DNA of 64,000 bases from Cliona cf. orientalis. Taxonomy: Eukaryota > Porifera > Demospongiae > Clionaida > Clionaidae. Of this stretch, positions 5,825 through 50,170 are shown in pieces. The translations under genes were made by a program, and so were the position numbers. The notes under the pieces are model-generated. The model made no database searches and was not told where the DNA came from. It saw only the letters and a list, made by a program, of their open reading frames with translations. The stretch lies in the NCBI GenBank assembly GCA_963930775.1, contig OZ005689.1, positions 22,628,058 through 22,692,057 of the forward strand. The letters run 5' to 3'. The first letter of the stretch is position 1, and the number at the start of each line of letters is the position of its first letter.

Positions 5825-8562
5825 CAGTGTGTAATTTAAGGCTTGACATTTGCTTGGCCAAGATGGCCAATCAGAGGAAGAATTGGTTGGTCGTTTTCAA
5901 TTTTGGTCGGTCATAAGAATCACTGCATACACAAATTAAATTAAATTTTGCATTATTACATTAGTGATAATATTATATAATATTGCATACGAAAACATTG
6001 TGTAACTATAACTGATTAGCATGTAATGATTATGACAAAGTACACACAGTCACTGCCTCCTTCATTAAGATTCGGAGTCTGAGTCTGACTCAATATCTAT
6101 CCAGCTGTCCCAGCTTTGAAGTAAACTGTCAGATTCAGCATCAGAATTCGACTCTGCATCAGAAACTTGTTCACTCTCGTGTGTGTCTGAACTAGTAGAT
6201 GCAGCCGAAACTTTGTGTTGTTTATACTGAGCTCTCGGTCTCTGGTTGGGTCGGCGCAGTTTGTCTTTCCACCATAAATCGATAGCATGATCGGGGTTGA
6301 ACTCTTTCAAAGGAACACCCGCAGTAGACACAATCAGTAAGTCATCCAGAGTTTGATTTGAAAGTTGAGTTCTCTTGGTAGATTTGATGACATTCACTTG
6401 AGAGAACACTCTCTCAAGTGTTCCATTCGACACTGGTAAGGAAAAAAGCAGCTCCACTAGCGTTAGAGCGTTGGCCCACTCAGTAGAAACTGGTGCATGA
6501 AAGAGACGCCACCATACACCCTGGTAGCTCAGTGTTGAGAGAGAGATATATTGGCATGCGTATTGTAACATAGCATCAAATTCTGTATGTATTTCCTCTA
6601 TATCAGCACCAGCACCTTGTAGTGGAATTGTAAATTTCTGTACAAGGTGGTCAATAGCTTCCAGAGGGTCCTTTTCATTGAGGGCCTTTTGCCATCCCTG
6701 TGTTGCAAGGATGAAGATGATATCTCTCAAACATTGGAGGTCTGACCATGCTAGCCTTGATTTGATGTTGTTCTTGATTAGTGTGCAGTATTCGACATGG
6801 TGGTTTTCGAAGTGTGTCTCTGCTGTGTCAAAGTTTTTTAATTGCTGAGCCTGGTAGATTGTATTCTCACCTTCCTTCGAGCATTTTTTGACTGTAGCTA
6901 CATATGTTGGCCATTGCTGTAGTGGTGAAGATTCTAGCTTTTCCAACTCCTTTACTGACTTCAACAAGCCAGTGAGGGCAGCGAGTATGTCTAGGTTGTC
7001 TTGTTGCATCACCTTAGAAAGAGAGACACATGGAGTGAGAAGATCAACAAAAATGGCACAACCTAGGATATATTTGGCATTTGTCCACTGCCTGTAGTAG
7101 CCTAGAATCTTTGCTCGGTCCGTAGACTTGAAAGAATGATCTTCAGACATGGCAGCAAGATGATTAGTGTAAGCACCGTATCTAGACAGAACACGCTTCA
7201 TAGCATTCCATTTGTGCCCAATCCACCTTGAGCCGCAAGCCCTGATTGGCTTTGATCCACCGTCCACCAAAGCAAGGCACTCCTTTAGGTCAGCTATGAC
7301 TTCTTCCAGTTGCCGACACTTTTTAGGTGATTTCGAGTATAGCAAGTATAGATTGAGGAGCATACCATCTACTGAATCAAAGTACGTTGTCTTTAGAGCA
7401 TCTTTGATAGCAAGTTCCAGCCTATGTGCCAAGCACCACATCCAAAACATCCATGGAAGCTTTGCCTCTACAAGACCTTTCAAGCCACCACCAGCGATAT
7501 TAGCTGAAGCACCATCTGTGCCAATCCCCACTAGCCGAGTACATTTCTCGCTATCGATCGCTTCGATTCCCAGACTCTGGAGCAATTCCTGCAGCATATC
7601 AAACATCCCTTGACCAGTAACTGTTGATGGTCTCATAATCTTGAAATGGCTGGTTCTGGTAGACACTTTCTCATTAGTTCCATCTTTATCAAACCAGACA
7701 ACAAGCACAAGTTCATTGTCCACATTGCCGGCATCAGTCGAACCATCTAGTAGTAGAGAGAAGAACTTAGCTTTTCGAAGGTTTTCAACTAATTCCTTCC
7801 TTATGGCTTCCGCAGAGTAGTGTACGAACGAACTTCCCGCTGTCTGAGTGCGATAGTTCGTGCCTAGGTCGACTCCATGTTTAGTCTCCAGCTCACAAAT
7901 AGCAGGATATTTGCGAAAGGATAGCTTCTCTCTTGCCACAAAATAGGCTATGTCGAATTTCTTCCGGAGTCGCTCTTTCTCGTCGTCAGGTAGAGTGCTC
8001 AGTGCCATAGCAATGGGGGCATAGGAGTAGCAGCTTTTGCCCTCGGCCTTTGCGCTCTCTTGTTTCAACAGAGACATCGCGTGATCATGCTGGTCGCTGT
8101 GGGCGTGGTCACGTATGTTGCTCGTGCGTACGGAGTCGGCACCGACGATCCAGCGATCACTGAAGTTTCTTCGGTGCATGATCCTCGATCGAAACCTCGT
8201 ACAAACGCTACATTTCAGCCTTTTCACCACCTTTTTTCCGCTCTTGATCTCCGATTCGCAGTCTAGCCAGGTAACAGTCTTCAGCTCCTTGTCGAAGTCC
8301 TCCCGCCATTTTCGGTAGGTTGTTACAGCAACTTTTCTCTTTTTTGGCGTTTGTTCAGAAGCGGAAGAACTCGCTCGTTTCATAACGCTTGCTAGTATAG
8401 CTAGAAATAGACTATTACAATAAACTGTACGCAGTACTTAGCCTATACGACTTTAGCTCGCTAGACGCTAGGACAAAGTGGCCGACCACGTGCTAAGTTG
8501 ACCGGTCATTCTAAATAAACGTACGGAAATTGGCCGATGGCCGGCAGTAAAATTACACACTG
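5825..8562 (-). mobile_element. Complete hAT-type DNA transposon
   Basis: The element has 13-bp inverted ends (CAGTGTGTAATTT at 5,825; its inverse ends at 8,562). Subterminal GGCCAATC/GGCCGATGGCC-type motifs lie inside both ends. TAGTTA directly flanks both ends (5,819-5,824 and 8,563-8,568). hAT elements usually make 8-bp duplications, so the 6-bp match is either a variant or two edge substitutions. The single internal gene is an intact transposase, so the element may be autonomous. Confidence 0.88.
6065..8383 (-). CDS. hAT-family transposase, ZNF862/C17orf113-like
   Basis: An uninterrupted 772-aa frame with a true ATG at 8,383, ending TAA at 6,065. Order: a basic N-terminus with a PKKRKV nuclear signal (about residues 13-18); a TTF/BED-like zinc finger around CSVCTRF...HSDQHDHAM (about 58-103); the RNase-H-like core with LLDGSTDAGN (about 214) and GIGTDGASANIAGG as acidic catalytic regions; a WCLAHRLELAIKDAL C-x2-H motif; a GSRWIGH tryptophan site; and the C-terminal hAT dimerisation block SLPVSNGTLERVFS...KSTKRTQLSN (about 655-690), which supplies the last acidic residue. 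The C-terminus is Ser/Asp-rich. All expected hAT hallmarks are present without stops, which suggests recent activity. It sits inside its own terminal repeats as the only gene. Confidence 0.92.
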   Translation of the reverse strand: MKRASSSASEQTPKKRKVAVTTYRKWREDFDKELKTVTWLDCESEIKSGKKVVKRLKCSVCTRFRSRIMHRRNFSDRWIVGADSVRTSNIRDHAHSDQHDHAMSLLKQESAKAEGKSCYSYAPIAMALSTLPDDEKERLRKKFDIAYFVAREKLSFRKYPAICELETKHGVDLGTNYRTQTAGSSFVHYSAEAIRKELVENLRKAKFFSLLLDGSTDAGNVDNELVLVVWFDKDGTNEKVSTRTSHFKIMRPSTVTGQGMFDMLQELLQSLGIEAIDSEKCTRLVGIGTDGASANIAGGGLKGLVEAKLPWMFWMWCLAHRLELAIKDALKTTYFDSVDGMLLNLYLLYSKSPKKCRQLEEVIADLKECLALVDGGSKPIRACGSRWIGHKWNAMKRVLSRYGAYTNHLAAMSEDHSFKSTDRAKILGYYRQWTNAKYILGCAIFVDLLTPCVSLSKVMQQDNLDILAALTGLLKSVKELEKLESSPLQQWPTYVATVKKCSKEGENTIYQAQQLKNFDTAETHFENHHVEYCTLIKNNIKSRLAWSDLQCLRDIIFILATQGWQKALNEKDPLEAIDHLVQKFTIPLQGAGADIEEIHTEFDAMLQYACQYISLSTLSYQGVWWRLFHAPVSTEWANALTLVELLFSLPVSNGTLERVFSQVNVIKSTKRTQLSNQTLDDLLIVSTAGVPLKEFNPDHAIDLWWKDKLRRPNQRPRAQYKQHKVSAASTSSDTHESEQVSDAESNSDAESDSLLQSWDSWIDIESDSDSES

Positions 8563-9845: not shown

Positions 9846-9960
9846 GTATTAGGTATTATACCTGGCAATTTCAGGGAGGGGGAATCCCAGGGTGGCCCCC
9901 TCTGTATTAATCCCTGATAATATGAGACTTCCAAACATGGTATGTAGTGCAAGCTTTATG

Positions 9961-9973
9961 CACTGTTAAAATT
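9961..9973 (+). repeat. Putative left terminal inverted repeat
   Basis: CACTGTTAAAATT, matched by the inverse at 23,802-23,815. GTGTA motifs follow within 150 bp (near 9,977, 10,001, 10,040 and 10,067). Confidence 0.5.
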
Positions 9974-10326
9974 CCCGTGTAATAACAGCACTAAAATAAG
10001 GTGTAGTTTTGATGTCCCAAAAGTGACTATTCAATGAAGTGTAAAAACTACGATTCAGATTGAGTGTACTCTTAACACTTGATTATAGAGTATCTTTTAC
10101 ACTTGTGGTGCTAATTTAGCATACCAGAAGGTGTCACTTCTAAACTTGCTGTGGTAAAAATGAATGTATTATAATGGTGTCAAAACAAGAATAAACCAAT
10201 GAAGCAAGAAACAAAATGAAACTGTATAGAATAAACTTTAAAGTATCCATAACAAAAAAAAAAAAAAAAAAACCAAAAAACTGTCCATAGCCTATATACA
10301 ATAAAACACTAGCCTAGCATCTTACT

Positions 10327-13300
10327 TTAAACTTGTTTCTGGATTGAACTAATGGTTCCAATGGCAGTTGCAGAGAGCTTTTGAAGGTTGGGTAAATCGA
10401 AACAAAATTTCTCCATGAAACCATACAGCATTTTCGCCTGAGGTGGGTAATCTATGTTGAACACATAATAGTAGGCCATGAGAACCACAACGGCAGATCT
10501 GAAGTCAGTCAAAGTCTTTTCCTGTACTTGATTCTCGCAGATGATGTAAAATTGTTTAAGATGAAAAATGTCTTCTCCAGTTCCAATAATGTATGGACGA
10601 GGGTTGTTGAATTGGTAAAGAACAGATGTGAGGCTTCTACTAGGCTGGAAAATAGTGTGTGCATTTCATGTGCATCATTAAATTTCATGTGTGTGCATTC
10701 GAAATATTAAATTTAATTGAGTGTGTCCTACCTCCATATACACAAAAAAGAAGTCAGATGCCGTCTTTGGTTTCACTATGAGTAGCTTAGTCAGTAGCAG
10801 GGAAACAACAGCATCAGTCTGGCCTACAATGTTGAAAAATTAATATACTGAATTATGCAGCAGCTGATATGTCTTGTACCACAATATATGACCTTTCACG
10901 ACAAAACCAAGCATATTGCGCTGGATATCAATCTGAGATTCAGGCCTATTTAGTTCCCAAGGTGATAATTATCATTTTTCACTTTTTGGCATACATCGAT
11001 AGAGGAATCATTCCTCTACATAAAAATCTGCTTCGTAGCTTCTAGAATGCTATACTTATGGCTCGAAGAAGTCCGCTGTGTAGGTAACATTGACCGTCCA
11101 TGATACGGAGCTGTTGCCATAGTTGCAGGTAGGCAAGCACGGCAGCTGCACAGAAATAAAACTCTCCAGTCACTTCTTTCTTCGGTTTTGTGTACTAATG
11201 ATCTAACGTTGTTCTTTTCCATTGAAACGATAGCTGCTGCTTTCTTTCCAACGTTTTGGCAGCCATCCAGCTCTTTGACTTAGTGGGTGGGGCCACGTAT
11301 TTTGCATAAACGGCGAGTATACGGACTTCCGTGTGCAACATACGTAGAAATGTTTCATCGTGCTCGCTGCACATTTTTAATACGGGCGATCCAGGTATAT
11401 TTTGGCTCATCTCTATGACTACATGGGCTAGAGACTTCAAATTTGCAGGAGCAATAGTTCAAGGGTTGTACTTGGTAATGGTGGCCTTAGCTAAAAATCG
11501 GTTGTCAGCGCAATGGCTGGTTTTGCCATGTAAGGTCACATATATTTTATAAACATGGAGTTTGTACATGAATACTTGTAAGTTGATTTACACAAACCTT
11601 TAGACACGTTTGATTCATCCAAAAGTTTGAGATATTCCTCTGTGCCAGACTTGTGACAGAGTTGAGCATACGAAACTATCTTTGGAACCCAATTTTCCCA
11701 CTTTACACCAAACACGTCACTCAACCCGGTTTTACCAGTAACACCTTCAAATTCTTCTATCAGCTGCATAAGGTAGAAGGAGCATCTGATAGCAATACTT
11801 TCAAGATGCATTCACATGCACATAATCACTTGTGTACATGAACACAAAAAGTCATAAAAATTAATGAATACACACACATGTAACTGAAGATTTACCGTAT
11901 CTGGGTCACACAGTGGAGGGAACTCTTCCTGTACATCCTTCACTTTTGGTACATCTGTCTTTATCCAGACCCGTCTATTCGGTGCACACTCTTTCATCAA
12001 TATCCTCACTCGCTCCATGTTGGCGTTGTCCTTTCCCATCTCCTTCTTCAATGACTAAAGTAAAAACACAGATATAAACACTGCAAATCGCATGTCAAAT
12101 ATGACAGTGCTTTATACCTGCTTGTGTCTGTCATACGTGACATCATCCATACTAGCTGTGCCATCAACCTTTGCCCACAAATGATATGTTGTAGGTTCCT
12201 TCGAGTTCTTCTTTGCTGATGGCACAAATTCCATTCCAGTAGCACCCTGACGTTTTTTCCTTCTCATGTTCTTCAATCTCGTGTCGAGTTTCTTGATCCA
12301 TGAGTCCTACAAGTATATATCAATTACAAAATTAAATAAATCAAGTATATGCAGGTATTATTAAATTTTACTTACACTTCCAGTTCCAATAGTATCTTTT
12401 AAAACTGGAAACGTTGAGACAATCTTGCTTGCAACTACTTGTATTTGATTGGTACTTGGGTACTTGCAGTAGTTTAGACACTTTGCAGATACATCCTGAA
12501 CTATAGCACGTCTGGTAATATCAGTGACCTGCCCAGTAGTCAACTCGGCCATTACAATTTCACTATACTGTTTAGGCACAGTGAAGTCATCCTCCCAACC
12601 AGGTAAGTGATCTGGAACACTTTGCATGATTTGAACCTATGGAAAATAAAAGAATATAAACAAACATGCACATATTATTTTACAGATTCTTTTCATACTT
12701 GAGCAACTCCAGGAGACTTTGACTTGCGTTTTGTTGAATTCTTGTCTTGGTTAACAGCAACCTTAAGAAATGTGTTCATGGTAATTGTAACAAAGATCAT
12801 TACATCTTTGTCAGTTTAAGAAAAGTTATTTGGTTGGAATCGTGCAATTTGATGTGGGTAGTTGTGAAAGCATGCAAATGACTAGCCTCGTCCCCAGGCC
12901 CCTCTCAACGCGGGGAGAAGGGCCTGGTACACACCGACTGCGCATGCGCCAGTTTGTACCCAGAATCTGGGTACATCGTATATTCCCGTAAAATATTCAG
13001 TAAACTAAGTATTTAAGATTACGTCATCCTTTCTCTCTGGGTGTTTAGATAGAGAATTCAAAGCACTAGCTCATACCCCATACACCATATCATACATGTA
13101 CATACCACAAATGGAATCCCAAATGGTTCAGCGTACCATCATGAATGGTCTGGACATGGCTTTTGCAGACATTCCAATACCTAATGGTACAATTATCGTT
13201 TTCAAGCGCTTGACTTTCTACGGATAAAGTGGCGAATGCGAGGTCAGTGTGTACCAGGCCCTTCTCCCCACGTTGAGAGGGGCCTGAGGACGAGGCTAGC

Positions 13301-15913
13301 AAATGACATTAGTTAGTCAGTGTGTATTCAGCACAAAGCACTATAACAAAGCCACATTATTCACAAATGTAGCTGTATACACTGTATCCTGTAGGTTGGA
13401 TCACAGTCTTAAATGTGTAGTTAAACGATTGCCAATGGTGCTATACAAGCCAGATTGTGTGATTTTAATGATTGTAAATAGCTAAGCGAGAAAGCAACAC
13501 CCTCGATCTTAGCTAAAGGCGTGGCTTGTGGTGAAGCTGCTTGTGGGGTGGGCATTTAATAGAATACCAATCAATTCAATCGATCGAGCAATGAGATGGC
13601 TAGTCTAGTCAAAGTGACTTACCACTAGTCCAGCGCCCTTTGTGTTAGCGACAGCTAAGCTGCTGGGTCTTAGCAGGCTAATTGTTGACTTGGCGTACTT
13701 TGACGAAGGCTCGGCATCTTGATCTAGGCTGTACGTGCCTCACATGCGAATATGCACGAGCACTCGATAGAATAAGCACTTGATAAGCAGAAGGAACATG
13801 ATTTCCTGTATTATTCATTGTGTATTCTTAACTGCGATTCTTTTGATTGTGAGTTATGGGAAAACTCACCATTCGCATCAAAAGAATCCGTAATCAAAAC
13901 TATACCTATGATATATTTTCTTTCTACTTACAGACTGAGGAGTAGCACCTTCCTCAGGATCAGGGAGAAGCAATTTTCTAGGTCCACACCGAGATGAGAT
14001 AGCACTGGGAGTTTTTTCAGGTTGAATTCTGATGTTGATCTGTGAATAAAGCATACGGTGTAGATCGTCAACAATGAAAACACCAAGTCATGCAAAGGGG
14101 ACTTAAGCTAGGGTATGCGGCTACTAGAATGCCAAATGTCCAATTAAAAAACCGAATACATGTATATAATATGCATAATTATTAAACAAGCTCATTATTT
14201 ACACATACATGCACTTTCATTGTGTGTACTGTGTAATAAAGCACTCACAGAATCATCATCAGATTCGGAGTCAGAGAGGAATCGAAATGATGACTGGTTT
14301 TTTGGTCGCTTTGAGTTGGGTTGAAGAGAAGAACTGGCGAGATGAGAAGAACTCTCTGCAGGGGTGGGACTGACCTGTGATGTACATGTATATATAAAAT
14401 AGTCAGTCACATTATGCATAAAAAATGACAAAATGCACATTACACTAGCAAGACTTGAATCAATTTTCATGCATGGGATGTCAATCAGTAAATTCAAATC
14501 TAGGGGTCTTAGTGTTTAGAGAGAACTCAGTACTTGTAATATATTATGCAAAGCACTAATAAAATCATCACTCAAGCTAGGGTATGCGGTTACTAGCTAG
14601 GAATGCCAAATGTCCAATTAAAAAACCGAATACGTATGCATAATTATTTGATAAGCTAATTATTTGCACATACATGCACTTTCATAGTGTGTACTGTGTA
14701 ATAAAGCACTCACAGAATCATCATCAGATTCGGAGTCAGAGAGGAATCGAAATGATGACTGGTTTTTTGGTCGCTTTGAGTTGGGTTGAAGAGAAGAACT
14801 GGCGAGATGAGAAGAACTCTCTGCAGGGGTGGGACTGACCTGTGATGTACATGTATAATTATATAAAATAGTCATAGTCACATTATGCACAAAAAATTGT
14901 AGTCAAAAAATAAAACAATAATAAAACACACATTACATTAGCAAGACCTAAATCAATTTTCATGCATGGGATGTCAAGACTAGTAAATGTAATTCTAAGG
15001 GTCTTAGTGCTTAGAGAGAACTTGGTACTTGTACTAGCTATTTTATGTGAAGCACTAACAGAATTATTGCTAAGATTGTCACCACAATCAGAGAGGGAAT
15101 GGGATGATGATGATTTTCTTGGCCGCTTTGACTTGTATTGAAGATTGAGGTGAGAAGTACTCGTTCCAGGGCTGATGTGAGAAACACTCTGCCCAGGGGT
15201 GAGATGAGAACTGCTCTGTCGAACGGTAAGGTGAGAAGTACTCTGCCCAGGGGTGAGGCGAGAACTACCCTGTCGAACGTTGAGGTGAGAAGTACTCTGC
15301 CCAGGGGTGAGGTGACAAGTACTCTGTCCGGGGGTGAGGTGAGAAGTACCCTGTCGAACGTTGAGGTGAGAAGTACTCTGCCCAGGGGTGAGGTGAGAAG
15401 TACTCTGTCCAGGGGTGAGGTGAGAAGTACCCTGTTGAACGTTGAGGTGAGAAGTACTCTGTCCAGGGGTGAGGTGGGAAGTATTCTGAAATCATTTAAA
15501 ATTGAGTTACCATGACAGTGTTAACTCTTCTATTACAGCTAACGAAATTAAAAAATAACAGTTTTTGCTTGCCTCATAAATTTCACTATCAGAGAGTGCT
15601 AGGATATCTCTGAAACCATGCTGTATTCATGCATATTAAACATGATCAGGTTTGAAACAATAAATTGTATCCATGCTAGTTGCTTAGGAATTTATCTTAC
15701 AACGATACTTACTTGGAGAGCCTCTTTCACTTTTTTCACCTTTTTAATATCACCTAAAGCGGTAACTCCCAGCTGCTTAAGGTCCTCAATATCGAGATCG
15801 AAAAGGACTTCTTGATCTATCTTATTCATACGAAAGATGGATATGATATCCTCAGTAATCCCTTGCAGTCTTAACAGAGAGCACACTTTCTCGTATTCTT
15901 CTTGGAACTCCAT
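10327..15913 (-). CDS. SAMD3-like protein, 12 exons, SAM domain plus repeat region
   Basis: Twelve exons join in phase on the minus strand: 15713-15913, 15060-15485, 14714-14839, 14249-14374, 13932-14039, 12699-12761, 12376-12636, 12118-12306, 11896-12054, 11598-11763, 10732-10823 and 10327-10521, giving about 703 aa ending TAA. Exon 1 encodes a SAM domain (EEYEKVCSLLRLQGITED, DLDIEDLKQLGVTALGDIKK). Exon 2 is thirteen 9-residue repeats of the form STSHLTPGQ/GTSHLNVRQ. Exons 3-5 are Ser- and Asp-rich. Exon 7 onwards resembles the conserved C-terminal half of SAMD3-like proteins (LPGWEDDFTVP; YPSTNQIQVVASKIVSTFP; WIKKLDTRLKNMRRKKRQ; DVQEEFPPLCDPDT). Biochemical function is unknown. The weakest splice choices are the acceptor at 11,764 and the CTTAAG acceptor of exon 6. 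It is head-to-head with the zinc-finger gene. Confidence 0.8.
10824..11597. other. Unusually long intron of the SAMD3-like gene
   Basis: Most introns in this gene are 60-130 bp, but this one is 774 bp. It holds overlapping frames around 11,016-11,440 (minus) with some coding-like composition, possibly an insertion. The flanking exons splice in phase directly (split GGC codon), so no extra exon is needed. Confidence 0.45.
12883..13298. mobile_element. MULE-like palindromic MITE with 9-bp target duplication
   Basis: Inverted ends TAGCCTCGTCCCCAGGCCCC / GGGGCCTGAGGACGAGGCTA are flanked by the perfect 9-bp direct repeat GCAAATGAC (12,874-12,882 and 13,299-13,307). A 9-bp duplication is typical of Mutator-like elements. 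It lies in an intron of the SAMD3-like gene. A 38-codon ATG frame (about 13,112-13,228, plus strand) is inside and not recognised. Confidence 0.8.
14103..15060. repeat. Tandem duplication containing exons 3 and 4
   Basis: Exon 4 with its flanks (about 14,103-14,570) and exon 3 with its flanks (about 14,571-15,040) are near-identical copies 465 bp apart. The end of exon 2 and the following intron form a more diverged third copy: SKRPRKSSSSHSLSD corresponds to SKRPKNQSSFRFLSD. The exons are both 126 bp and phase 0, so the protein gained 42 residues per copy without frame loss. Confidence 0.85.
15135..15485 (-). repeat. In-frame 27-bp coding minisatellite (exon 2)
   Basis: Thirteen units of 9 codons alternate between TPGQ- and NVRQ-ending forms, giving a higher-order period of about 81 bp. 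All units keep frame on the minus strand. The plus-strand frame over the same sequence is a shadow. Confidence 0.9.
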
Positions 15914-16060
15914 GTTTTCAAAATCGATCGAAGTTCCACACGTACACTTGCACTCTGACAACGCAATTCAAAAACACGTGTAGTCTATGTCAACGCATGC
16001 GCAATAATTCAATGCTACATGGCATGCGCACTAGGCGTGGTCTTTTTTGAAAACTTCAAT
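15914..16060. promoter_or_regulatory. 147-bp divergent promoter
   Basis: The start codons of the SAMD3-like (15,913, minus) and zinc-finger (16,061, plus) genes are 147 bp apart. The gap has a CACGTG E-box (15,975-15,980) and two GCATGCGC motifs (15,995-16,002 and 16,022-16,029) resembling half of the NRF-1 palindrome. There is no clear TATA box. Co-expression of the pair is inferred. An in-frame upstream ATG at 16,019 could extend the plus gene by 14 residues. Confidence 0.65.
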
Positions 16061-19000
16061 ATGGCGAGTAGTGTCGAAGCTTTCCGTGGTTCTCGGCATC
16101 ATTGTCCTATGTGTTCTGATTTCAGTACTCCAACAGCAAAACTCTTACTAGGGCACTTAAGCAGAGTACATTCGCATTCACCAAATTTTTCATTCACCTG
16201 TGGACTCGATGGATGCCTCACTACATGTAAAAGCTATTCATCGTTACGAAAGCACATACAACATAAGCACAAATCTTCTCTCTTCAATCAAGAGAACGAA
16301 CCCTCGAGGAGTAACCAATCGTTTGAAAACGACGAGGACGGTCATACTCAAAGCGGCTATGATCATGAGTGGTTGGACCCTGATGTAGGAGGGGCTGGCC
16401 CGCGAGACTATCAAATCGCAGAAGATCAACATCTTTTCCAGCTAAACTCGGCAAGGTACACTTAAATACATGGCTGTGTCTACAGTGCCGGTACCGGCAC
16501 CGCAATTTAAGCGTTATAGTGCCGGTAAGTCCATATAAAATACTGTACTCTTACGTAGCCCTAGTCCCCGCCCCCTCCTGCATATGGCAATATAAATTTG
16601 TACATAAATTTGCCGGCACTCTAGACACTGCGTAAATACATATTAGTTAGACACTGTTTAGGAGGTTTGGATTAAGTGGCAAGAACGGTACCGCGAAATT
16701 TTTGAACTACAGAAGATACCGGTGACCCTGTCACAATAGCACGGGCCCGGGATTCTACCATAGCCCTTCGGTCTTCTAAATCACGTAGAAACCTCCTATA
16801 TAGTGTCTAACAAGTTTAGATCATACCTATACTGCAATTTGATTGCCGTGTAGTCACCTACAAGATTATCATACCTAAACAGTGTAACTATTATTTAACA
16901 GTGCCCATAGGCTTGACATATAAATCATGCTGCCTAGCAATAGTCCAACCCATAGGCAACAATTTTTTACAGGTTTATGGGACCAATCAGATAACAGTAT
17001 TTATTACAACTAGGATCTAAATACTTGTAATGCTGGAGGTCACTCCATTACAGCATAATAATTTGAAATTTAAGTAAACCCTGGCTTCTATTTATGATGT
17101 GCCTTAATTGGGAACTCGTATAAATGCAATAACAATATTATGTGATCATATAGGTGGATTATGAAGTTGAAAGAAGTGAGGAAACTCACTCAGCAATCAG
17201 TCAACTGTATCTTGGGGGATGTTACAGACCTATGCGATGACATAGTGACTCGTATGCAGAGAGATATCACTTTGAGACTTCAGAGTGCTGGAATCACACC
17301 TGCTGATGTTCCCGGGCTATCAGACTTATTAGATTCCTCCAATCCACTTTGTCGTCCTTTTGATGGTTTGGATACATACTATCGCCAAGTGGCTTTTATG
17401 AAGAAGCACTTGAAACTTGTTGTAAGGGATCCATTGGCAATAAGTAATATTTAGTCAGGGTTTCATGTGTATTTGTGTGTATACTCAGGAACCTGTTGAG
17501 GTGGAGTTAGGAATAAAGTATATTTGGAAAGGTTCTGGTTTGACGAGAAGGATGATACAGAAGAAGGATACTTTTTCGTATGTTCCCATTCTAGCTGTTT
17601 TGGAAAGGATGCTACAAAATTCCTCCATCTTTCAAGAAGTAAAACTTTTTTGCTTAATTTTTTTATCCTTTTATTTAAGGTATGTACATACACACATACA
17701 TAGGTTGCTACTGATCACAGACATGATGATGCTTTACTTGAAGATTTTTGTGATGGAATCAAAGGACGAACTCATACGCTATTCAGTACTAGATCTCTCC
17801 AGCTCATCATGTACTTCGATGAGTTGGAAATCTGCAATCCAATTGGAAGTGTAAGGAAGAAACACAAGCTAGGTTAGTTCATTGTTTGTGTAGTACTATT
17901 AATGACAATTTAACCTGTTTCATACATACAGGTTTTTTTTACTTTGTACTTGGAAACATACACCCTCGATATCGCTCTTCTTTAAAAGCAATCCAACTTG
18001 TGGCAATCTGTAAGAATGAGTATTTGAAAACGTATGGGATTTTTACGGTTGTGCAGCACTTTGTCAAAGATATAAAGAAACTTGAACAGGTAAAAAGATG
18101 GCAGATGTAAAATGTATCCATAAATAAAGGGGTGTGGTTCATATGTGCACATACTGTAAATGCATTTTCTTAGTAAAGGAACACGTGTTCACTGTGTCAC
18201 GTGTCCCATATGTGCTGTGTATTCACTGTGTCTAGTGTGTTTTGTGTGTCCTGTGTATTCACTGTGAACCAGTGATTACATATTATACATGTACTACTCT
18301 ATTTAAAGGGTGTTACCATGGATACTGCTGAAGGACCTATGCATATGAGGGGTTCTATCGCATCATTTGTTGGTGATAACCTGGGTAGCCAAGCTTTAGG
18401 AGGATTCAAGGAGGGTGGCAGTGCGTTTCGTCCATGTAGGCACTGTATGGTCACTCGGACCGAACTGAGCAGTAAGGTACATGTATGTTGTGAATGAATG
18501 TCATAATAATTTTATTACCATGTATGCTTGCTAATTGTGTAGATGTCGGAGAAAGATCTACAACTACGATCCCCTAACAACTACGACCACACATGCAATC
18601 TTTTGGATTCCCTGGATGATCCTTACCATACCACAACTTATGGCGTTAACCGACGATCATGCTTGAATGAGCTTACTTACTATCACGTTTCGGATTATGG
18701 TTTGCCTCCAGATATTATGCACGACATTCTCGAGGGGTATCTACCTTACACTCTCAAACTGCTACTATCTTACTACATTACTACTCTCAAGCTATTTTCC
18801 ATAGAGGATCTAAATGAAGCTATTGTGAATATGGACTATGGCCATGCAGTATCTTCCAGACCACAGCGTTTAGGCATCAGTGATCTGTCTACGCAGAGTG
18901 GATGTGCAAAGTTCCTACTTAGTGGTATGTGTTACTTAATATTTAAATAATTTGCTGACTTAAGTTTTTTTAGCTGCTGAGACATGGGTGTTTGCCAGAC

Positions 19001-21044
19001 TTCTTCCAATAATGATCGGTCATCGTGTTCCTCATGAAGAACCACACTGGGTACACTTTTTACAGCTTCTTGATATTATGGAGATTATATTTGCACCAGT
19101 CTTGGAAGAAAATGTCCCTGCAACACTACTAGTCTCAATTGAGTCTAACCTTCAAACATTTGTCACCTTGTACCCAACATCGAATGTGATACCCAAGATG
19201 CACTATTTGCTTCACCTCCCTCGATTCATTGAGAAGTAAGTGCATGATTTTCACAGCATTATACACATGGAAAAAAAAACAACTAATTCTTGTTTCTTTG
19301 TAATCCTAACAGCATTGGCCCCTTAGTAAGGCATTGGACCATGCGCTTTGAGGCAAAGCATCAGTATTTCAAGTCTCTGGCAAATTCCATGGGTAACTTT
19401 ATCAACATTTCTCATTCATTAGCAATGAGACATCAAACATATCAATGCTACATTCTGCAAGATGAAGATTTGTTGAAAGACTCTATTGAGTGTGGACCAG
19501 GTTAGATAGATTGTGTGCGTGGTACATCCAATATTCTATTATTTCTGTTTTTATCATAGCATAACACTATCCATGACAGAGTTTGGGGAAGATCTCACCA
19601 AATTACTGCCTGTAGCTCCATCCAGTTTATTTCGGTAAGTAATATCAGGCATCAGCTCAAAATTTAATGTTGTCCTTGTATTTATGTACACTCATGCATA
19701 CGTACAGTCAAAACCTCGATTATCCAAACCCTTTTGGCCAGCTCAAAACTCCAAGCATTCGGATAGGCAAAAGTTCGGATAATTGAGAGTCTATAATATT
19801 TAATGTACAGCTAACCATGCCTAGTCTCGTCCCCAGACCCAACCCCCAAAAGGAGGAAAGGGTCTGGTATACATCGAGCGTTTTCTTGGGCACACAGGAT
19901 GCAGCTCGTCATGTGACCGTCATGATAACACATCGGTTTGGCATAGCAACGCATCAACCGCTCTCATAAGCAGCAATAGCTGGCTATAGCGAGGTATTAC
20001 ATGATAATCACATGTAAGCCACATGCATGGCATGACAAAATTCAGAAACCCACGTCAGCAAGCCCGAGAAAACGCTTGATGTGTACCAGACCCTTTCCTC
20101 CTTTTGGGGGTGGAGTTTGGGAACGAGATTAAACCATGCCCACTCCAATAAGTTACAGTGTACATGTATATCATAGACTTACTAAGCATTTCGATGTTTC
20201 ATCACATTTTGGATGAGCTCACTTACGCTTTACACAGTGACCTTCTTGAAGGCTACCGTATAGCCGGAAATATTGGCGGGCATTAAATTTGGCGGTTGAG
20301 TCCAAAATCGCTATTGAAAGAATATTGGCGGATTTAAATTTGGCGGTTCGGTATGGGATCGCCATATGTATATATGCGAGTAGGAAATTTTGGCGGATTT
20401 TAATTTGGCGGTTGTAATAATAGACCGCCAAACCGCCAAATTTAATTCCCCGCCAAATTTTCCGGCTATACGGTATTTTGGCGCTTCTGTCATTTGCACA
20501 AACAGCAAACGATGGCCGCACTACGTATACACTCTACTGCACATGTGCACATTGATACCATGCCTGACATTTATACTTTGACCTGCATAATTTTGCTTGG
20601 CTCTGATCAGATAATCAAGGTTGGACTGTACATAATTATTGTGTACATCACAATGTCATAATAATTATTTTTATTGTCAGTGTTCAATATTCACACATAC
20701 ATGCATACAGAGCTAAATGGATCAAGTTCAATGGGATGCACTTGAAACCAGGTGTTGTGGTTGTGCTGTCTCCATATGTACAATCCACTGAGAGTCCAGA
20801 ATTTGGGTCAATCTTGGAAGTTTTCATGCTACCATGTCAGGGAGTTTTTCTGGGAGTGAAGGTGTACGAAGTTTCGGATTACAATGAACACCTTCATGCT
20901 TGGGGTGTCAGGTGCACGGACACAACTCGAGCATTGAATGTTAAATCTTTGTGTAGTCCCCAATTGTTGCATGCTAGAACATGTCCTTGCTCACTTGGCA
21001 TTGAAAAGTTCATTTCACTTAAGCATTCTATTGTGCATGCATGA
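16061..21044 (+). CDS. C2H2 zinc-finger / transposase-like protein, 11 exons
   Basis: Exons 16061-16455, 17154-17421, 17489-17638, 17704-17872, 17932-18089, 18309-18476, 18543-18924, 18974-19235, 19313-19500, 19580-19634 and 20711-21044 join in phase to about 842 aa ending TGA. Exon 1 has two C2H2-like fingers (HCPMCSDFS..HLSRVH; FTCGLDGCLTTCK..HIQHKH). The core carries MYFDELEICNPIGS, FYFVLGNIHPRYRSSLKAI, FVGDNLGSQALGGF with CRHC, LPPDIMHDILEGYL, WVFARLLPIMIGHRVP, PKMHYLLHLPRFIE and LVRHWTMRFEAKHQYFKS. This is the recognisable layout of a large invertebrate/fish family of unnamed ZnF proteins. I infer a distant CACTA-like transposase from the D..MHD..EG and CxxC regions. Introns 1 and 10 are long because MITEs sit in them. 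The two shortest exons and the start choice are the least certain parts. Confidence 0.85.
16472..16634. mobile_element. Short MITE with GTGCCGG ends
   Basis: GTGTCTACAGTGCCGG at the left mirrors CCGGCACTCTAGACAC at the right. It lies in intron 1 of the zinc-finger gene. Confidence 0.6.
16646..16811. mobile_element. GTTAGACACTG palindromic element
   Basis: It begins GTTAGACACTGTTTAGGAGG and ends CTCCTATATAGTGTCTAAC. Relatives lie at 22,361-22,497 and 41,640-41,774, and a single arm lies at about 37,400. It is in intron 1 of the zinc-finger gene. Confidence 0.7.
19822..20131. mobile_element. MULE-like MITE with 9-bp target duplication
   Basis: Ends TAGTCTCGTCCCCAGACCC / GAGTTTGGGAACGAGATTA are flanked by AACCATGCC on both sides (19,813-19,821 and 20,132-20,140). 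It is the same family as 12,883-13,298 and lies in intron 10 of the zinc-finger gene. Confidence 0.8.
20256..20475. mobile_element. TA-flanked MITE, CCGTATAGCCGGAAA ends
   Basis: A near-perfect palindrome with arms TACCGTATAGCCGGAAA / TTTTCCGGCTATACGGTA and an internal GGCGG-rich mirror. Its ends match 4,486-5,020. It lies in intron 10 of the zinc-finger gene. Confidence 0.8.
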
Positions 21045-21196
21045 TTTATAACATGGTGAGATTGTTTTTATTTACAGTTATTATTATCTATGTTATGACA
21101 TTGTATTATTGTATTTGTGACTGGTTTTGTTAAGTTGGAGAAAAGAAATGTTTGATGGGTGACTGGGAATGTTGATGATTGAAGTGACAGATTTGA

Positions 21197-23537
21197 TCAA
21201 CAGTTCTTGAACTTTTTGTTTGGTGGGGGAGAAGGAGTACCAATGTCATGATCATCACCGTCTGAACCATGATTTAACAGAATATAATACACTTACTGCC
21301 ATAAAATAACATCATAGTTCAAACTTACCAACAGATTCCTTGGACGCACCAAAAAGTTCTGGGCTTGGTGTTCTATCTTCAACTTCTACACAGATACAAT
21401 GTCATAGGTATAGCTACATAATTATATAATAAAGCACCCTATCATTGCATGGCATCTCCCGCTCCCCCCTGGGTTGGATGGGTAAATAGTAGGAATTTGA
21501 CAGAGTACCATGCCAAGAACTAGCCTCATCCCCAGACCCTCTATCCTTTTCCACACATGCTGGATGTATTGCATCACCAGCACACAGAGGAAGGGTCCAG
21601 CAACTCTTGCACAGTTTTTGTTTTCTAGAGGAATTTATAATATAGAGCCAATGGGGTGTGAGCTGTCATGTGACATTGCAATCATTAACCACAGGCATAC
21701 ATGTGAGTGTATAGTTAACAAAAAATTTGAGACTAGTGGCTGTGTAGGGCCATCGAAATTGAGAATGATGCCAACAACCTTTGACCTTTATTCCTCGCGC
21801 TTTCGTGAGGAGAGAATGGCAGGCTTTGATGGATTGATTTTCGAGCGAGATTTCGAGACAGCCATTGCTATCCCGATTGGTGGTGGGATTTGAACATTTA
21901 ACACGCACATTATCACAAAGGTCAGGAGGTCATTCCATATTCTTTACATGTGTTGCACCGTTTACTATTATACATATTATGGTAAGGATTCGTGTACGGA
22001 AAGTTTCACGGTCGTTTTTACGGAACAGTTGACACATGCGCAAACAGTGTGTACCAGGCCCTTTCTCCTCCTCCTCAAAGGGCCTGGGGACGAGGCTAAG
22101 TCAATAACCCCTCTCCTGGGGTATTCCCAGATGTCAATACACCTATCCACCTGTATAGCACATGGGTGGGGTAGTTCGGGGGGGGGGGTGTTCACTGACA
22201 GGTGCATAATTTTGATAACAAATTGTAACTAAGCAACCTACCACTTGCAGATGAATTGCTAGCTTCAATGTCTGAATCTAAGGAGTTCAATAAAAATTAA
22301 TAAAAACTTATGGAAGCGTAGACAAAAAGAGCCTAGAGCTATGAATTATTATGTAATAGTTAGACCGTGGTTACTAGGTTTCTACGTGATTATTTAGAAG
22401 ACCGAAGGGACTCGTGTAGAACCCGAGCGAAGTGAGGGTTCTATTGAGTGCCTGAGGGCTTCTAAATCACATGAAAACCTAGTAACCACGGTCTAACGTA
22501 TTTAGATCCTAGCAACAAGCTGAAAACTTCTTTGCAATACCAGCAACAAGACATAAATCGAGCGAAATACCGTCATCTTTGAGGTCATTTCAATGCTGGT
22601 ACAAGTGCCACGGCAGCTATTGAACTTAGATGTGTGCTTTTAATAGAATCACACTTTAATATTGTGCCAGCTGCCACTGGACAAGGCAAGCAGTGTGTAG
22701 CTATGTAGTAAGCCTCTGTATACATAGTTTAGCTTATACTCAATATCTTTCCTGAGCAAGGCTCCCATGACCGTTAGAAATGTGTTGCTATGTAGCTATG
22801 GCCTTGAGACATGCAATTATTACAAGGGTATATGGGTTATATGAGGATTTACAAGGGTTCTATGAAGATTTACAAGGGTTCCTCGAGTCTATTTAGGACC
22901 CTACTTTGGATCAATGAGATTACAGTATTAATTTTGTTACAACTACGACCTAAACTATATTATAATACCTTCAGATTCTTCATCCACCTGACGATTCCCA
23001 ATCTGATCCACTCTGTTGCGGTACGCTATTTCCAGAAATCGTATTGCAGTCATGATAAATGGAAGTAGTCTTGGATAGGTTAAAAGAATATACGCTTCCT
23101 TTCGCTCTTCTGGCATTTATCCGGGTCTAGATCTCTTGCTTGCAGCTAGCTTGATTGGTAAAGACCACGTGGACAGGGCCATAGCCACACCCCACGTCAA
23201 TTAGCTACCTTTTGATGTGACCCAGGGACATCATAGTAGCCTCGTCCCCAGCCCTCCCCGATCTTTTTCTCTCGCGTGCGTTGAAAAAGATCGGGGAGGC
23301 TGGGGACGAGGCTACATCTATAGTACATGTATACATTACAGGAAGTTTACAGAGCAAGATAATCATGAATAAGTAGCTATGTCTTGTCATACTTTCAGTC
23401 CGATTCGTGATCACGAGTAGGGCCGTGAATCATGTATTGTAGCTACTGTTTTTGAACACATTTATGCCATCAGAGTATTGAACTACAAAATTCAACAAAT
23501 TGGTACTTACTGTCAGGTCTGGATGCTGGGAGTGCAT
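21197..23537 (-). CDS. Small acidic Ser/Asp-rich protein, five micro-exons
   Basis: Exons 23511-23537 (27 bp, ATG), 22969-22987 (19 bp), 22242-22277 (36 bp), 21329-21385 (57 bp) and 21197-21261 (65 bp, TGA) join in phase to 67 aa. It starts MHSQHPDLT and continues VDEESEDSDIEASNSSASEV, then RTPSPELFGASKES and a proline/lysine tail ending NKKFKNC. Every junction has GT/AG, and split codons (GAT, GAA, GAC) resolve sensibly, which is hard to get by chance over four introns. I do not recognise it. Its 3' end converges on the zinc-finger gene 153 bp away. A TTTATAAA motif lies just upstream of the ATG, probably too close to be a TATA box. Alternative: the last exons of a longer gene. Confidence 0.6.
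21522..22103. mobile_element. TAGCCTCG MULE-like element, larger copy
   Basis: It starts TAGCCTCATCCCCAGACCC and ends CCTGGGGACGAGGCTA. Flanking 9-mers do not match, so it may be composite. It lies in an intron of the small acidic gene. Confidence 0.6.
22361..22497. mobile_element. GTTAGACCGTGG palindrome
   Basis: Arms GTTAGACCGTGGTTACTAGG / CTAGTAACCACGGTCTAAC form an almost perfect hairpin. The centre is related to 41,640-41,774 (TTTAGAAGACCGAAGGG). Confidence 0.75.
23238..23315. mobile_element. Minimal TAGCCTCG hairpin
   Basis: A 78-bp perfect-looking hairpin TAGCCTCGTCCCCAGCC...GGCTGGGGACGAGGCTA, with the loop at TCTCGCGTGCGTT. It is the smallest copy of the family. Confidence 0.75.
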
Positions 23538-23801
23538 GGTTTATAAAAGTTAATTTACTTTTTTATTTGTAGTTACTGCATTTATGGGGTAATTGTAACA
23601 ATATTGAGTGTAGTTAAAAGTGCTAATAACTAGGAATGTGCACCTTAAAGCTAGGTACAAATTATCTACCAGACAATGAAGTGCTGAAGCAACACCAATG
23701 AGTGTAACTGTTACACTTTGCTTATGATTTACACCTTTAGGTGTCATTTCTACACTATCAGATGGTTTAGTTTCTACATTGGTGGTGCTAATACTACTAC
23801 C

Positions 23802-23815
23802 AATTTTTAACAGTG
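23802..23815 (-). repeat. Putative right terminal inverted repeat
   Basis: Minus-strand CACTGTTAAAAATT, pairing with 9,961-9,973. GTGTAGAA, GTGTAAAT and GTGTAACA follow inward. Confidence 0.5.
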
Positions 23816-24666
23816 TGGCTAGGTACATGTATATGGTGCAAGCTCTAGCTATCTAGCTATATGGTGTCTATGGTGCAAGTTCTATATGCAGGGTTGCATA
23901 CAGGATTTTTTCTGGGGGGGGGGGGGGGGGCGATCTCACGGATGACTTGCATATGTATATGCGCCGCTGCCATGCGTATATACTAGTAAATAAATCACAC
24001 AATAATGCTGTGATAACAAACTTGTGTATGTCATCATAATATTATCATTTGTGCTATATATATTACATGTATATTATTATGGATTCTGGGGGGGGGGGGG
24101 GGGGGAGATCCCAGTGCGCCCCCCCCCCCCCCCTCTGTATGTAACCCTGATATGGTGTCTATGGTGCAAGCTCCAGCTAGCTGGCAACCTATAACATGGT
24201 GACTATGGTGCAAGCTCCAGCTAGCTGGCAACCTATAACATGGTGACTATGGTGCAAGCTCCAGCTAGCTATATACATGTATGGTGTCTAGGGTGCACGC
24301 TCTAGCTAGCTAGCTATTATTATGGTACAAGCTCTAGGGTGCAAGCTCTAGCTACCTAGCTAGATAACAATACATAACCAGGGTATATTTCAGAATTTCA
24401 CACAAGAGGGGGCAAACACATAGCAGTAAACTTCAAGGTAGGGGGGCAAATGCAAATCCAAGAGGAGGCACCCTCATATTAAATATAGGGAAAGCCAATT
24501 TCAAAGGGAGGGGGGATGCTCCCCCCCTCCCACCCCCCTTGAAATGAACCACAGTAGCAAAGTAAATTGATGCAAGAATGCAAGATCTAGAGGTAATGGG
24601 ACTTCTAACTATAATAAAAGGTTCTTGGATTAGGGGGGAATAGCAACAATTACAAGAAGTATAGTA
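23816..24666. repeat. ATGGTGCAAGCTC tandem repeats and G/C tracts
   Basis: Units of ATGGTGCAAGCTCCAGCTAG recur from about 23,840 to 24,350, three of them within longer repeats of about 55 bp. G and C homopolymers lie at 23,917, 24,088 and 24,118. A similar GGTGCAAGCTC array precedes the related gene at 43,209. Confidence 0.7.
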
Positions 24667-45510: not shown

Positions 45511-46769
45511 ACATGAAAGTTCTTAGCTTAACAAGGATGGGCACACACACTCTCATCACCCCATCTGCATCCTAAAGCTAGCTGGAAGAGAAAAAATCCG
45601 GGCAGCCACCGGGAATCGAACCCAGGGCCACTGGCTTGAGCCACCAGCGCTCTACCACTGAGCTACGACCACCCTTAGGCACCCGAACTCCCCCTTCCAG
45701 CTTTTAAGGGCGAAAGTCAACCCTATACCCAAACTACGTTCACGGAGTCTGCCGGGATAATTAAATCACCAAAGCACAGAGCCCCAACAATAGTAATTAC
45801 ATGAAAGTTCTTAGCTTAACAAGGATGGGCACACACACTCTCATCACCCCATCTGCATCCTAAAGCTAGCTGGAAGAGAAAAAATCCGGGCAGCCACCGG
45901 GAATCGAACCCAGGGCCACTGGCTTGAGCCACCAGCGCTCTACCACTGAGCTACGACCACCCTTAGGCACCCGAACTCCCCCTTCCAGCTTTTAAGGGCG
46001 AAAGTCAACCCTATACCCAAACTACGTTCACGGAGTCTGCCGGGATAATTAAATCACCAAAGCACAGAGCCCCAACAATAGTAATTACATGAAAGTTCTT
46101 AGCTTAACAAGGATGGGCACACACACTCTCATCACCCCATCTGCATCCTAAAGCTAGCTGGAAGAGAAAAAATCCGGGCAGCCACCGGGAATCGAACCCA
46201 GGGCCACTGGCTTGAGCCACCAGCGCTCTACCACTGAGCTACGACCACCCTTAGGCACCCGAACTCCCCCTTCCAGCTTTTAAGGGCGAAAGTCAACCCT
46301 ATACCCAAACTACGTTCACGGAGTCTGCCGGGATAATTAAATCACCAAAGCACAGAGCCCCAACAATAGTAATTACATGAAAGTTCTTAGCTTAACAAGG
46401 ATGGGCACACACACTCTCATCACCCCATCTGCATCCTAAAGCTAGCTGGAAGAGAAAAAATCCGGGCAGCCACCGGGAATCGAACCCAGGGCCACTGGCT
46501 TGAGCCACCAGCGCTCTACCACTGAGCTACGACCACCCTTAGGCACCCGAACTCCCCCTTCCAGCTTTTAAGGGCGAAAGTCAACCCTATACCCAAACTA
46601 CGTTCACGGAGTCTGCCGGGATAATTAAATCACCAAAGCACAGAGCCCCAACAATAGTAATTACATGAAAGTTCTTAGCTTAACAAGGATGGGCACACAC
46701 ACTCTCATCACCCCATCTGCATCCTAAAGCTAGCTGGAAGAGAAAAAATCCGGGCAGCCACCGGGAATC
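45511..46769. repeat. 288-bp tandem array with tRNA-like module, 4.4 copies
   Basis: Units start at 45,511, 45,799, 46,087, 46,375 and 46,663. The last is cut at about 46,769 in the T-arm of the tRNA-like part. I see no difference among the copies. Each unit carries a minus-strand tRNA-like segment followed by a SINE tail. Confidence 0.95.
45601..45672 (-). repeat. tRNA-like segment in tandem unit 1
   Basis: D-arm GCTCAGTGGTAGAGC, anticodon arm CTGGT-GGCTCAA-GCCAG, T-arm CTGGGTTCGATTCCCGG. The acceptor stem pairs only with several G-U wobbles. Repeats at 45,889-45,960, 46,177-46,248 and 46,465-46,536. The loop GGCTCAA has G where T33 belongs, so it is a SINE head or pseudo-tRNA rather than a charged tRNA. 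Confidence 0.65.
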
Positions 46770-48111: not shown

Positions 48112-49689
48112 ATTTTGTCAACAAAAATCCTCGATCTCCACTGTAGGTAGGAGTACCAGCTGAATAACGGGTGACTACCCCTGAAACAATCATCAGTGTA
48201 TATACAGAAACTATTTTCAAATCTCAGGCTTATTTGAATAGCTCAGCACCAAGGAGTGGATCACCGATCACCCACTAGCTGCCTAATCCTGCGGTATAAC
48301 CTAACCCCCCCCATGACACACAAAAACAGGCGACATCTCTGACCCGGCTACCAAAGGGATCTAATTGGTTCAGCGGGCCAGGCCATTCCGTGCGATGGGA
48401 TAGCCATCTTAGTACCTTGGCACATAGTCTCACGTTCTGAAATCTTCGCACTAAGCTATAATAATAAGGTAACTTACTACGTACATAGACTGCTCTGGGT
48501 CATACTCTGCATGTGTTGACCGTGTACTTTGACCCAGGCCATGCGTCTGAGATCTATTAATTTTGCGCGTGCGCAAACCTGGATCCTATTCATATCCGGA
48601 TATCCATAGGCCATATCCTAGGCCGGCCTACAGCCCTGCCCATCTGATTATTAATAGTTATTCATAGAGCGTCACAACTGCGCATGTGCACGAAGGCACC
48701 GCGCGCGCAGAGTGCGGCTATAATACTTTTAAAACAGACGACCCTAACCTACGAAAATCTCTTATACTTGGCTTGCAGAAGGTGGGAGTGCGGTTTTGTT
48801 AAAAAGCTAGTTGAGACGATCTAAATGGTATGTTTTCCGATGATTTTGGAGAGTATACACCCACGCATTTTTATTTAATAAACATCGGACCTTAAGATGG
48901 TTTAGTGTTGAAAGTTGTAGTTGAAAAGAGGTTTTATGGTACTCTGCTTGTCGTGCTAGCAGACACTCTAGCAGTACGATTTAGGTGGTTTTAAATCTGG
49001 AGTTGGTAGAGCTTTATGTAAATGCCGTCAATGTGTGGCCACTGGAGAGGATATCCAATCAAAGGTATCAACATTTCTTGCATACATCTGCATGTATACA
49101 AGTAGCATTGTACCCGTGGAGGCCTTTACATCTTAAACATTACACACAAACAATTGGAAAGGCCTTGGTATTTATGAGGCTATAGACATATACATGCATA
49201 CGTGTGCATGCACACAAAAGCCATGAGAGTGGTATTGTGCACAATCATAGCCATCAGACTAGAGGTCAATTAGAGGCCATCAACCTACATTATGGATTTT
49301 CTTTTGTTAATTGAATGCTTGATGTAGCAAATCATGAAAATTGTGTTTTGTGGTTACATGTAATTTTAATTAATTTAATGTAAATTTTATTGTGCTCTCA
49401 AGCATTCATATATTTAATCCTTACACAGTTTAATGAAAAACAGTTTGAGTTGAGCACACCAGCAGCAATATGATTATCACTGCTCTTTGCTTAGTGACGA
49501 AATGGCTGAATGAGGTTCAGTCACTTATGGAATTCGCTACCACAGTCTGCTGAATGATATAGAGCATTTTCATGTCGTAAACATGCAAATGTCTTAAGAT
49601 GTAATACAAGGACTTTGATTCATCTTCAAGCAAATTGCATTTATCTGGTATAGATTGTCAACTCTGGCTTCTATGCATACATGATTTTG
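48112..49689. other. Intergenic
   Basis: 48,240-48,600 is related to 27,510-27,720. Short frames at 48,985-49,185 are not recognised. Confidence 0.4.
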
Positions 49690-50170
49690 TATCGTAAATT
49701 TCTTGCAGCTGCCCAGATGTGGATATTTGCTATTCATCGTCCACTAATAGTTGGAGACAAGATTCCCCTAAATGATCCACTCCGGGAGTGTTTCCTTCAT
49801 TTGCTAGAAATTAAGAAGTATTGCACAATTCGTGTCGCATCTTCTGCTTCAGGATCATACATATAAGCACGGGTGGATCAGCACAACAGAAAGTTCACTC
49901 AGTGCTATCCTGATCAAAGGCGCACACCAAAAATGCATTACATGGTTCATTTTCCAACTCAGTTGCCGCTATAAGTGTATTATGATTATTAATTTTTATT
50001 TATTTTGATGCATAATTATGTTATAGCACTAGACCACTAATTACAACTTGGTGTATGAGAATGGAAGCCAAGCACTCTTCAAGAGTGTAGCACACTTGGG
50101 CAATTACCGAAATGTTCCCTTTTCAGTGGCAAGGCATCATCAAAGACTTGTGTGCAAATCTTCGTGGAAA
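49690..50170 (+). pseudogene. Decayed copy of the C2H2/transposase-like gene family
   Basis: Pieces in order: FLAAAQMWIFAIHRPLIVGD then KIPLNDPLRECFLHLLEI (49,700-49,815), NRKFTQCYPD and TPKMHYMVHFPTQLPL (about 49,895-49,975). The last piece is frame-shifted sequence which in pieces spells a WxMRMEAKHS-like block and GNYRNVPFSVARHHQRLVC (about 50,050-50,155). These align with WVFARLLPIMIGHRVPHEEP, PKMHYLLHLP and LVRHWTMRFEAKHQ of the gene at 16,061. Stops and shifts show it is dead. Its wording differs enough to be an older subfamily. Confidence 0.75.

Follow-up and report, generated by a model that had tools for sequence, protein, structure and literature searches.

Gene content of the locus

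The 64,000-bp stretch of DNA analysed here (the window) corresponds to C1:22628058-22692057 of the 216.8-Mb, 149-contig genome of the sponge Cliona cf. orientalis. It contains a 13,855-bp transposable element, in which a SAM-domain gene and a transposase gene are arranged head-to-head between terminal inverted repeats. The genes are known here from open splice models alone. The principal features are as follows:

9959..9960 (no strand): left copy of the target duplication, TG, for which the empty site C2:13114365 (L043) has just one TG
9961..9971 (+): left terminal inverted repeat, CACTGTTAAAA, its boundary set by the empty site
9961..23815 (no strand): whole element, 13,855 bp, delimited by the empty site with its flank identities
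10327..15913 (-): SAM-domain gene, 744 amino acids (aa), 12 exons with GT..AG introns, open splice model (exons 15913-15713, 15485-15060, 14839-14714, 14374-14249, 14039-13932, 12761-12699, 12636-12376, 12306-12118, 12054-11896, 11763-11598, 10823-10732 and 10644-10327)
15914..16060 (no strand): 147-bp gap between the start codons, presumed to be a shared divergent promoter
16061..21044 (+): transposase gene, 842 aa, 11 exons with GT..AG introns, open splice model (exons 16061-16455, 17154-17421, 17489-17638, 17704-17872, 17932-18089, 18309-18476, 18543-18924, 18974-19235, 19313-19500, 19580-19634 and 20711-21044)
23805..23815 (-): right terminal inverted repeat, reverse complement of CACTGTTAAAA, from the sequence match and a right end shared with another place on C1
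23816..23817 (no strand): right copy of the target duplication, TG, from the empty site comparison

The original prediction for this locus had placed a SAM-domain gene head-to-head with a zinc finger/transposase-like gene, and open spliced models on the minus and plus strand, respectively, bear this out. The predicted CACTGTTAAAA ends are likewise present, at 9961 and inverted at 23815, and the distance from them to the outermost codons of the models is 366 bp on the left and 278 bp on the right.

Element ends, target duplication and empty site

The limits of the element are given by a related site on contig C2 (L043), where the left flank of the window matches with 99.5% identity over 636 bp and the right flank with 94.1% over 254 bp. 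The two flanks overlap at this empty site by one TG, and the window has a TG on each side of 9961-23815. A search with window positions 9861-10200 yielded a C2 match to the left flank that is 100% identical over 100 bases, and its last base is the one before the element. Rearrangement farther to the right marks the C2 locus as a relative of the insertion site and not as an unaltered allele. At the opposite end, the last 232 bp of the element recur at C1:31772413-31772651 with 93% identity, and the homology ends 2 bp past the repeat (query 23560-23930). Two DNA searches across the element ends in the window returned no homology running through 9961 or 23815; homology of that kind would have spoken against the predicted element. 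Taken together, the empty site and the right-end match define the element as 9961-23815, 13,855 bp in length, with a 2-bp duplication. This is a real, exactly bounded element of the CACTA/EnSpm-Mirage-Chapaev-Transib (CMCT)/CACTA type, which looks intact and recently inserted. The original prediction had asked for empty sites and for outer homology that stops at CACTGTTAAAA; the former is the C2 site, and the latter is seen there as well as in three copies of a 9.9-kb relative. Its provisional point that no target duplication had been seen was wrong, and the TG duplication favours the element.

The pattern CACTGTTAAAA occurs in the genome with 187 + 153 matches compared to 161 + 141 for the reversed pattern; being barely commoner than this control, the 11 bases alone are weak evidence. 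Inverted pairs of CACTGTTAAAA were picked from the first 100 places listed genome-wide, and among the matches listed several are spaced 0.28, 2, 3, 3.9 or 9.9 kb apart. Flanks were read for 14 complete pairs, with the window counted in and the 9.9-kb pair kept separate, and 12 of these 14 pairs have identical 2-bp flanks, either TA or TG. Subterminal words vary by family (GTGTA, GGGTA, CACAC or CACCC) and are mostly not above shuffled controls.

Non-autonomous families with CACTGTTAAAA ends and 2-bp duplications were found at sizes of 2 kb (L010-L016, L019), 3-4 kb (L009, L020) and 0.28 kb (L017, L018). Members of the 2-kb family L010-L016 are approximately 89-92% alike over 2.1 kb, and their similarity ends within 5 bp of the CACTGTTAAAA ends.

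The transposase

The predicted transposase comprises a C2H2-like finger at the N-terminus, followed by the catalytic core and a C-terminal domain that is BAH-like in the structure model of a homologue. The core harbours the triad D310, D403 and E664, the pair C423/C426 (C2C) and the pair H640/H644 (HxxxH); six motif columns are invariant in all 41 aligned sequences, and the E is conserved in 40 of the 41. The protein thus carries the signature of CMCT transposases, i.e., a DDE triad whose second D and last E enclose C(2)C and H(3-4)H. The terminal repeats start with CACTG at both ends (CACTGTTAAAA), in keeping with the CACT(A/G) termini of CACTA/EnSpm (CMC) elements, and the duplications (TG in the window, AA, TA or CA in the 9.9-kb relative) fall within the 2-5 bp typical of that group. 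The window transposase itself has no match in Pfam. Among 87 homologues, Transposase_21 (PF02992) is precomputed for nine and Plavaka (PF18759) for seven, and a Transposase_21 scan scored P0001 at 20.4, P0009 at 27.9 and the relative on C5 at 27.5 bits, compared to a cut-off of 28.6. The CACTG ends, the 2-bp duplications and those homologues that match Transposase_21 all agree with the CACTA-like affiliation proposed originally. The model of one homologue, P0031, adopts a RAG1/Transib-type fold and matched the structures of RAG1 and BbRAGL; the window transposase is probably folded like RAG1 as well. Elsewhere in the window, 49469-50155 (+) is a decayed remnant of another transposase from this family.

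Relatives carrying both genes

A divergent pair of SAM and transposase genes is present in at least two more diverged lineages, namely the 9.9-kb and the 8.5-kb elements, for both of which the ends were read. The 9.9-kb relative at C1:11227973-11237868 (duplication AA) has its SAM gene and transposase laid out as in the window, and the identity between the two elements ranges from 26 to 61% in the individual transposase matches and from 32 to 35% in the SAM matches. Further copies of this relative reside at C2:13534620-13544520 (duplication TA) and C3:3464638-3474536 (duplication CA). Over the compared ends (563-637 bp each) the three copies agree at 98.7-100%, and the match breaks off no more than 3 bp from CACTGTTAAAA; SAM as well as transposase exons were found in all three. 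The second lineage is represented by an 8,469-bp element at C5:3597757-3606225 (L040/L042) with ends CACTGCAAAAA, where the SAM gene again diverges from the transposase; its copy on C7 (L041) is 96.5% identical and flanked by a TA duplication. A probable further element, C1:12885214-12904332, spans 19.1 kb between inverted CACTGTTAAAA ends, with divergent SAM and transposase exons inside.

Both the C5 and the C7 copy also contain, within the element, an open reading frame (ORF) with a PARP domain (4.3e-9). In a census of such frames (37 of 44 rows kept, the other 7 being extra pieces of places already included), the PARP ORF lies just downstream of a transposase at 7 of the 37 places:

C5 and C7 copies, C1:14935827, C3:4260020, C1:30662498, C3:7720552 and C1:32380918: PARP ORF beside a transposase

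The ORF measures about 250 aa in the C5 and C7 copies and at C1:14.9 Mb. Its presence at seven transposase loci implies that such elements do take on enzyme cargo, and lineages of the CACTA kind are hereby shown to have picked up a PARP-domain gene. A possible host source is a large group of related PARP frames clustered on contig C10.

Genome-wide pairing of SAM and transposase genes

The original prediction required that the two families recur head-to-head elsewhere and are not usually found apart, which is what a genome-wide census revealed. Three SAM queries (the window, 9.9-kb and C5-lineage genes) and two transposase queries were used; SAM rows were joined when on the same strand and within 12 kb, transposase rows when within 6 kb. 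One transposase row set was entered as 11 merged ranges, and entering it singly likewise gave 44 transposase loci. Among the candidates scored (54 of 390 and 56 of 398 for the two transposase queries), the census comprises 39 SAM loci and 44 transposase loci. Thirty of the 39 SAM loci are situated within 15 kb of a transposase locus, compared to a chance of 0.65% for a random locus, and conversely a SAM gene lies equally near to 29 of the 44 transposase loci. The arrangement is head-to-head in 28 of the 30 paired SAM loci; the other two are C1:25456065, which adjoins the transposase of another element, and C1:32386384, a single exon. Three transposase loci that seemed to be SAM-free yielded a SAM gene under a closer query, and part of the unpaired loci is accounted for by incomplete search or decay.

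The SAM-domain protein

The SAM protein matches SAM_1 at residues 7-59 (E 4.7e-6, 27.3 bits, cut-off 23), and in Pfam, at E values up to 1, it hits SAM families only, with no match to Kelch or PHD. The SAM gene of the C5 lineage also scores above the Pfam cut-off for SAM_1. The core of the protein has no match in the PDB. Two of its exons, 14249-14374 and 14714-14839 (-), encode identical stretches of 42 residues, a tandem exon duplication in the model.

Homologues of the core retrieved by protein searches are tick proteins and a few unnamed ones, and no protein named SAMD3 is among these matches; the label "SAMD3-like" stems from the original prediction, and the pattern of the core would fit a putative member of that family. 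Several tick proteins, including P0088, P0091 and P0092, share the core and have a different N-terminus, presumably PB1-like, without a SAM domain. Ticks also possess a transposase homologue, P0059. It is a speculative and rather doubtful proposition that animal SAMD3-like genes originated as the dedicated partner of CACTA-type transposons with a RAG1-fold transposase, such that their scattered expansions in invertebrates and fish would reflect the copying of transposons and vertebrate SAMD3 would be a domesticated remnant of such a partner. If true, this would offer an explanation for a puzzling SAM-domain family and establish a second, independent "RAG1 plus partner" system.

A two-gene core and its possible function

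These findings make it highly probable that the locus is a cut-and-paste CMCT transposon with a two-gene core, and the SAM protein may be a working partner of the transposase. The SAM gene is co-mobilised in copies with sharp ends and, therefore, almost certainly an integral part of the element. The transposase would cut at the CACTG/CAGTG ends, as expected from the chemistry of its family, and the element would be joined to dinucleotides, here mostly TA and TG, thus generating the 2-bp duplication. A short shared promoter would allow both proteins to be made together. SAM domains often make polymers, and the SAM protein would most likely multimerise through this domain, bind to the element's own subterminal words or to the transposase, and help to unite the two ends, similar in function to plant TNPA or to RAG2. 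Such a role in assembling the element ends is plausible, if short of an even bet; we rank it first, followed by a host-directed role.

Several observations weigh against this interpretation. Two of the 14 CACTGTTAAAA pairs, L010 (TA/CA) and L011 (GA/TA), lack matching 2-bp flanks, and the C5 copy is set in an AGCT repeat with no clean 2-bp duplication. The GTGTA words predicted near the ends are indeed present (GTGTA/TACAC 5 + 5 in the two 250-bp ends versus 1.16 per 250 bp inside), but a count of ten is not exceptional for a commonest 5-mer in shuffles of matched composition (95th percentile 11). The SAM match of the 9.9-kb relative reaches 15.6 bits, below the Pfam cut-off of 23, and the structure model of the SAM core is poor (pLDDT 51) with no telling fold match. 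In the census, no transposase turned up within 15 kb for 9 of the 39 SAM loci, and 15 of the 44 transposase loci had no SAM gene at that distance; the search is incomplete, given the share of transposase candidates scored, and the nominal P values of 5e-58 and 3e-15 overstate the pairing, because element copies are not independent and those of one element were counted several times.

The SAM gene might instead be integral to the element as a passenger whose product acts on the host, e.g., by anti-silencing or on chromatin, and stays outside the cutting-and-joining complex. The sub-lineage with a PARP-domain gene downstream of the transposase at seven loci speaks for this, as it shows that enzyme cargo is taken on, and fungal CMCT elements carry TET/JBP genes that may be such factors (PMC12730594). 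Yet, the SAM gene is far more constant than PARP and keeps its place and orientation despite different ends and third genes, which leaves this a possible explanation that we hold with less than even confidence. In the window the two genes start 147 bp from each other and are read in opposite directions, which would also suit a self-made repressor or dose regulator that rises with the transposase through divergent transcription; a pure repressor, however, is expected to be lost from fast-spreading copies, while three near-identical copies retain the SAM gene, and we regard this as improbable. Finally, the 11-mer is only slightly enriched genome-wide, as would be the case for two ordinary host genes between chance copies of it. 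Copies with sharp ends and duplications and the recurrent pairing contradict such a coincidence, which is exceedingly unlikely and refuted by an empty site exact to the base.

Relation to known transposon systems

Among transposases with the RAG1 fold that depend on a partner encoded by the element, the best known is RAG1, with RAG2. The window element resembles RAG1-RAG2 and ProtoRAG in the probable RAG1-type fold (the RAG1 and BbRAGL structures were matched here), the CACTG/CAC ends and a second element-borne protein. It differs from ProtoRAG in that its duplication is 2 bp rather than 5 bp and its genes diverge rather than converge. Moreover, its partner bears a SAM domain with no Pfam match to Kelch or PHD, and hence is not RAG2-like.

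In plants, Spm requires two essential proteins for transposition, a Transposase_21 enzyme and a DNA-binding protein (PMC1636069). The sponge element likewise has two core genes, one of them for the predicted transposase; yet TNPA and TNPD derive from one alternatively spliced transcript (PMC1636069), whereas here there are two divergent genes and the second encodes a SAM-domain protein. SmTRC1 of Schistosoma has 2-bp direct repeats at the ends in 7 of 14 copies and shares with the sponge elements these repeats, a probably Transposase_21-related transposase, a size of several kb and non-autonomous copies; in contrast, its ends start with CCC rather than CACTG, and the passages on it describe one ORF with a Transposase_21 domain and no SAM-domain partner gene (PMC1636069). 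A study on CMCT elements (ESTA, Plavaka, Transib/RAG1) likewise lists 5'-CA..TG-3' ends, duplications of 2-5 bp (with TA duplicated by ESTA, too), accessory genes, and C(2)C and H(3-4)H motifs that follow the second D and precede the last E; the accessory described there is a TET/JBP dioxygenase in fungi, and here it is a SAM gene, in some cases with PARP, in an animal (PMC12730594).

No SAM-domain partner of such elements was reported in the literature searched, Repbase being outside this search. The new aspect of this CMCT/CACTA element is its recurrent SAM-domain partner gene, and the occurrence of this gene beside the transposase at many places in the genome suggests a partner protein that had not been recognised before. 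This element, too, has a RAG1-type transposase, and it keeps an unrelated, divergently placed partner gene across lineages so far apart that in most exons only about one quarter to one half of the residues agree between their proteins. The two proteins form a concrete, testable pair, for which intact-looking copies provide a source for culture assays.

Further features of the window

Three spliced genes had been predicted within the element. The models of the SAM and transposase genes stand, and the third gene can be spliced but is not established as real:

21197..23537 (-): possible acidic gene of 67 aa (17 D/E, 5 K/R), five exons (23537-23511, 22987-22969, 22277-22242, 21385-21329 and 21261-21197), splice model only

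A DNA search with the region 21180-21420, which contains the last two exons of this model, found no second copy in the genome. Outside the element, a 790-aa open frame at 6065-8437 (-) is presumably a hAT-type transposase or zinc finger 862-like, and four tandem tRNA-Glu (CTC) genes, spaced at 288 bp, are predicted by ARAGORN at 45600-46536 (-).
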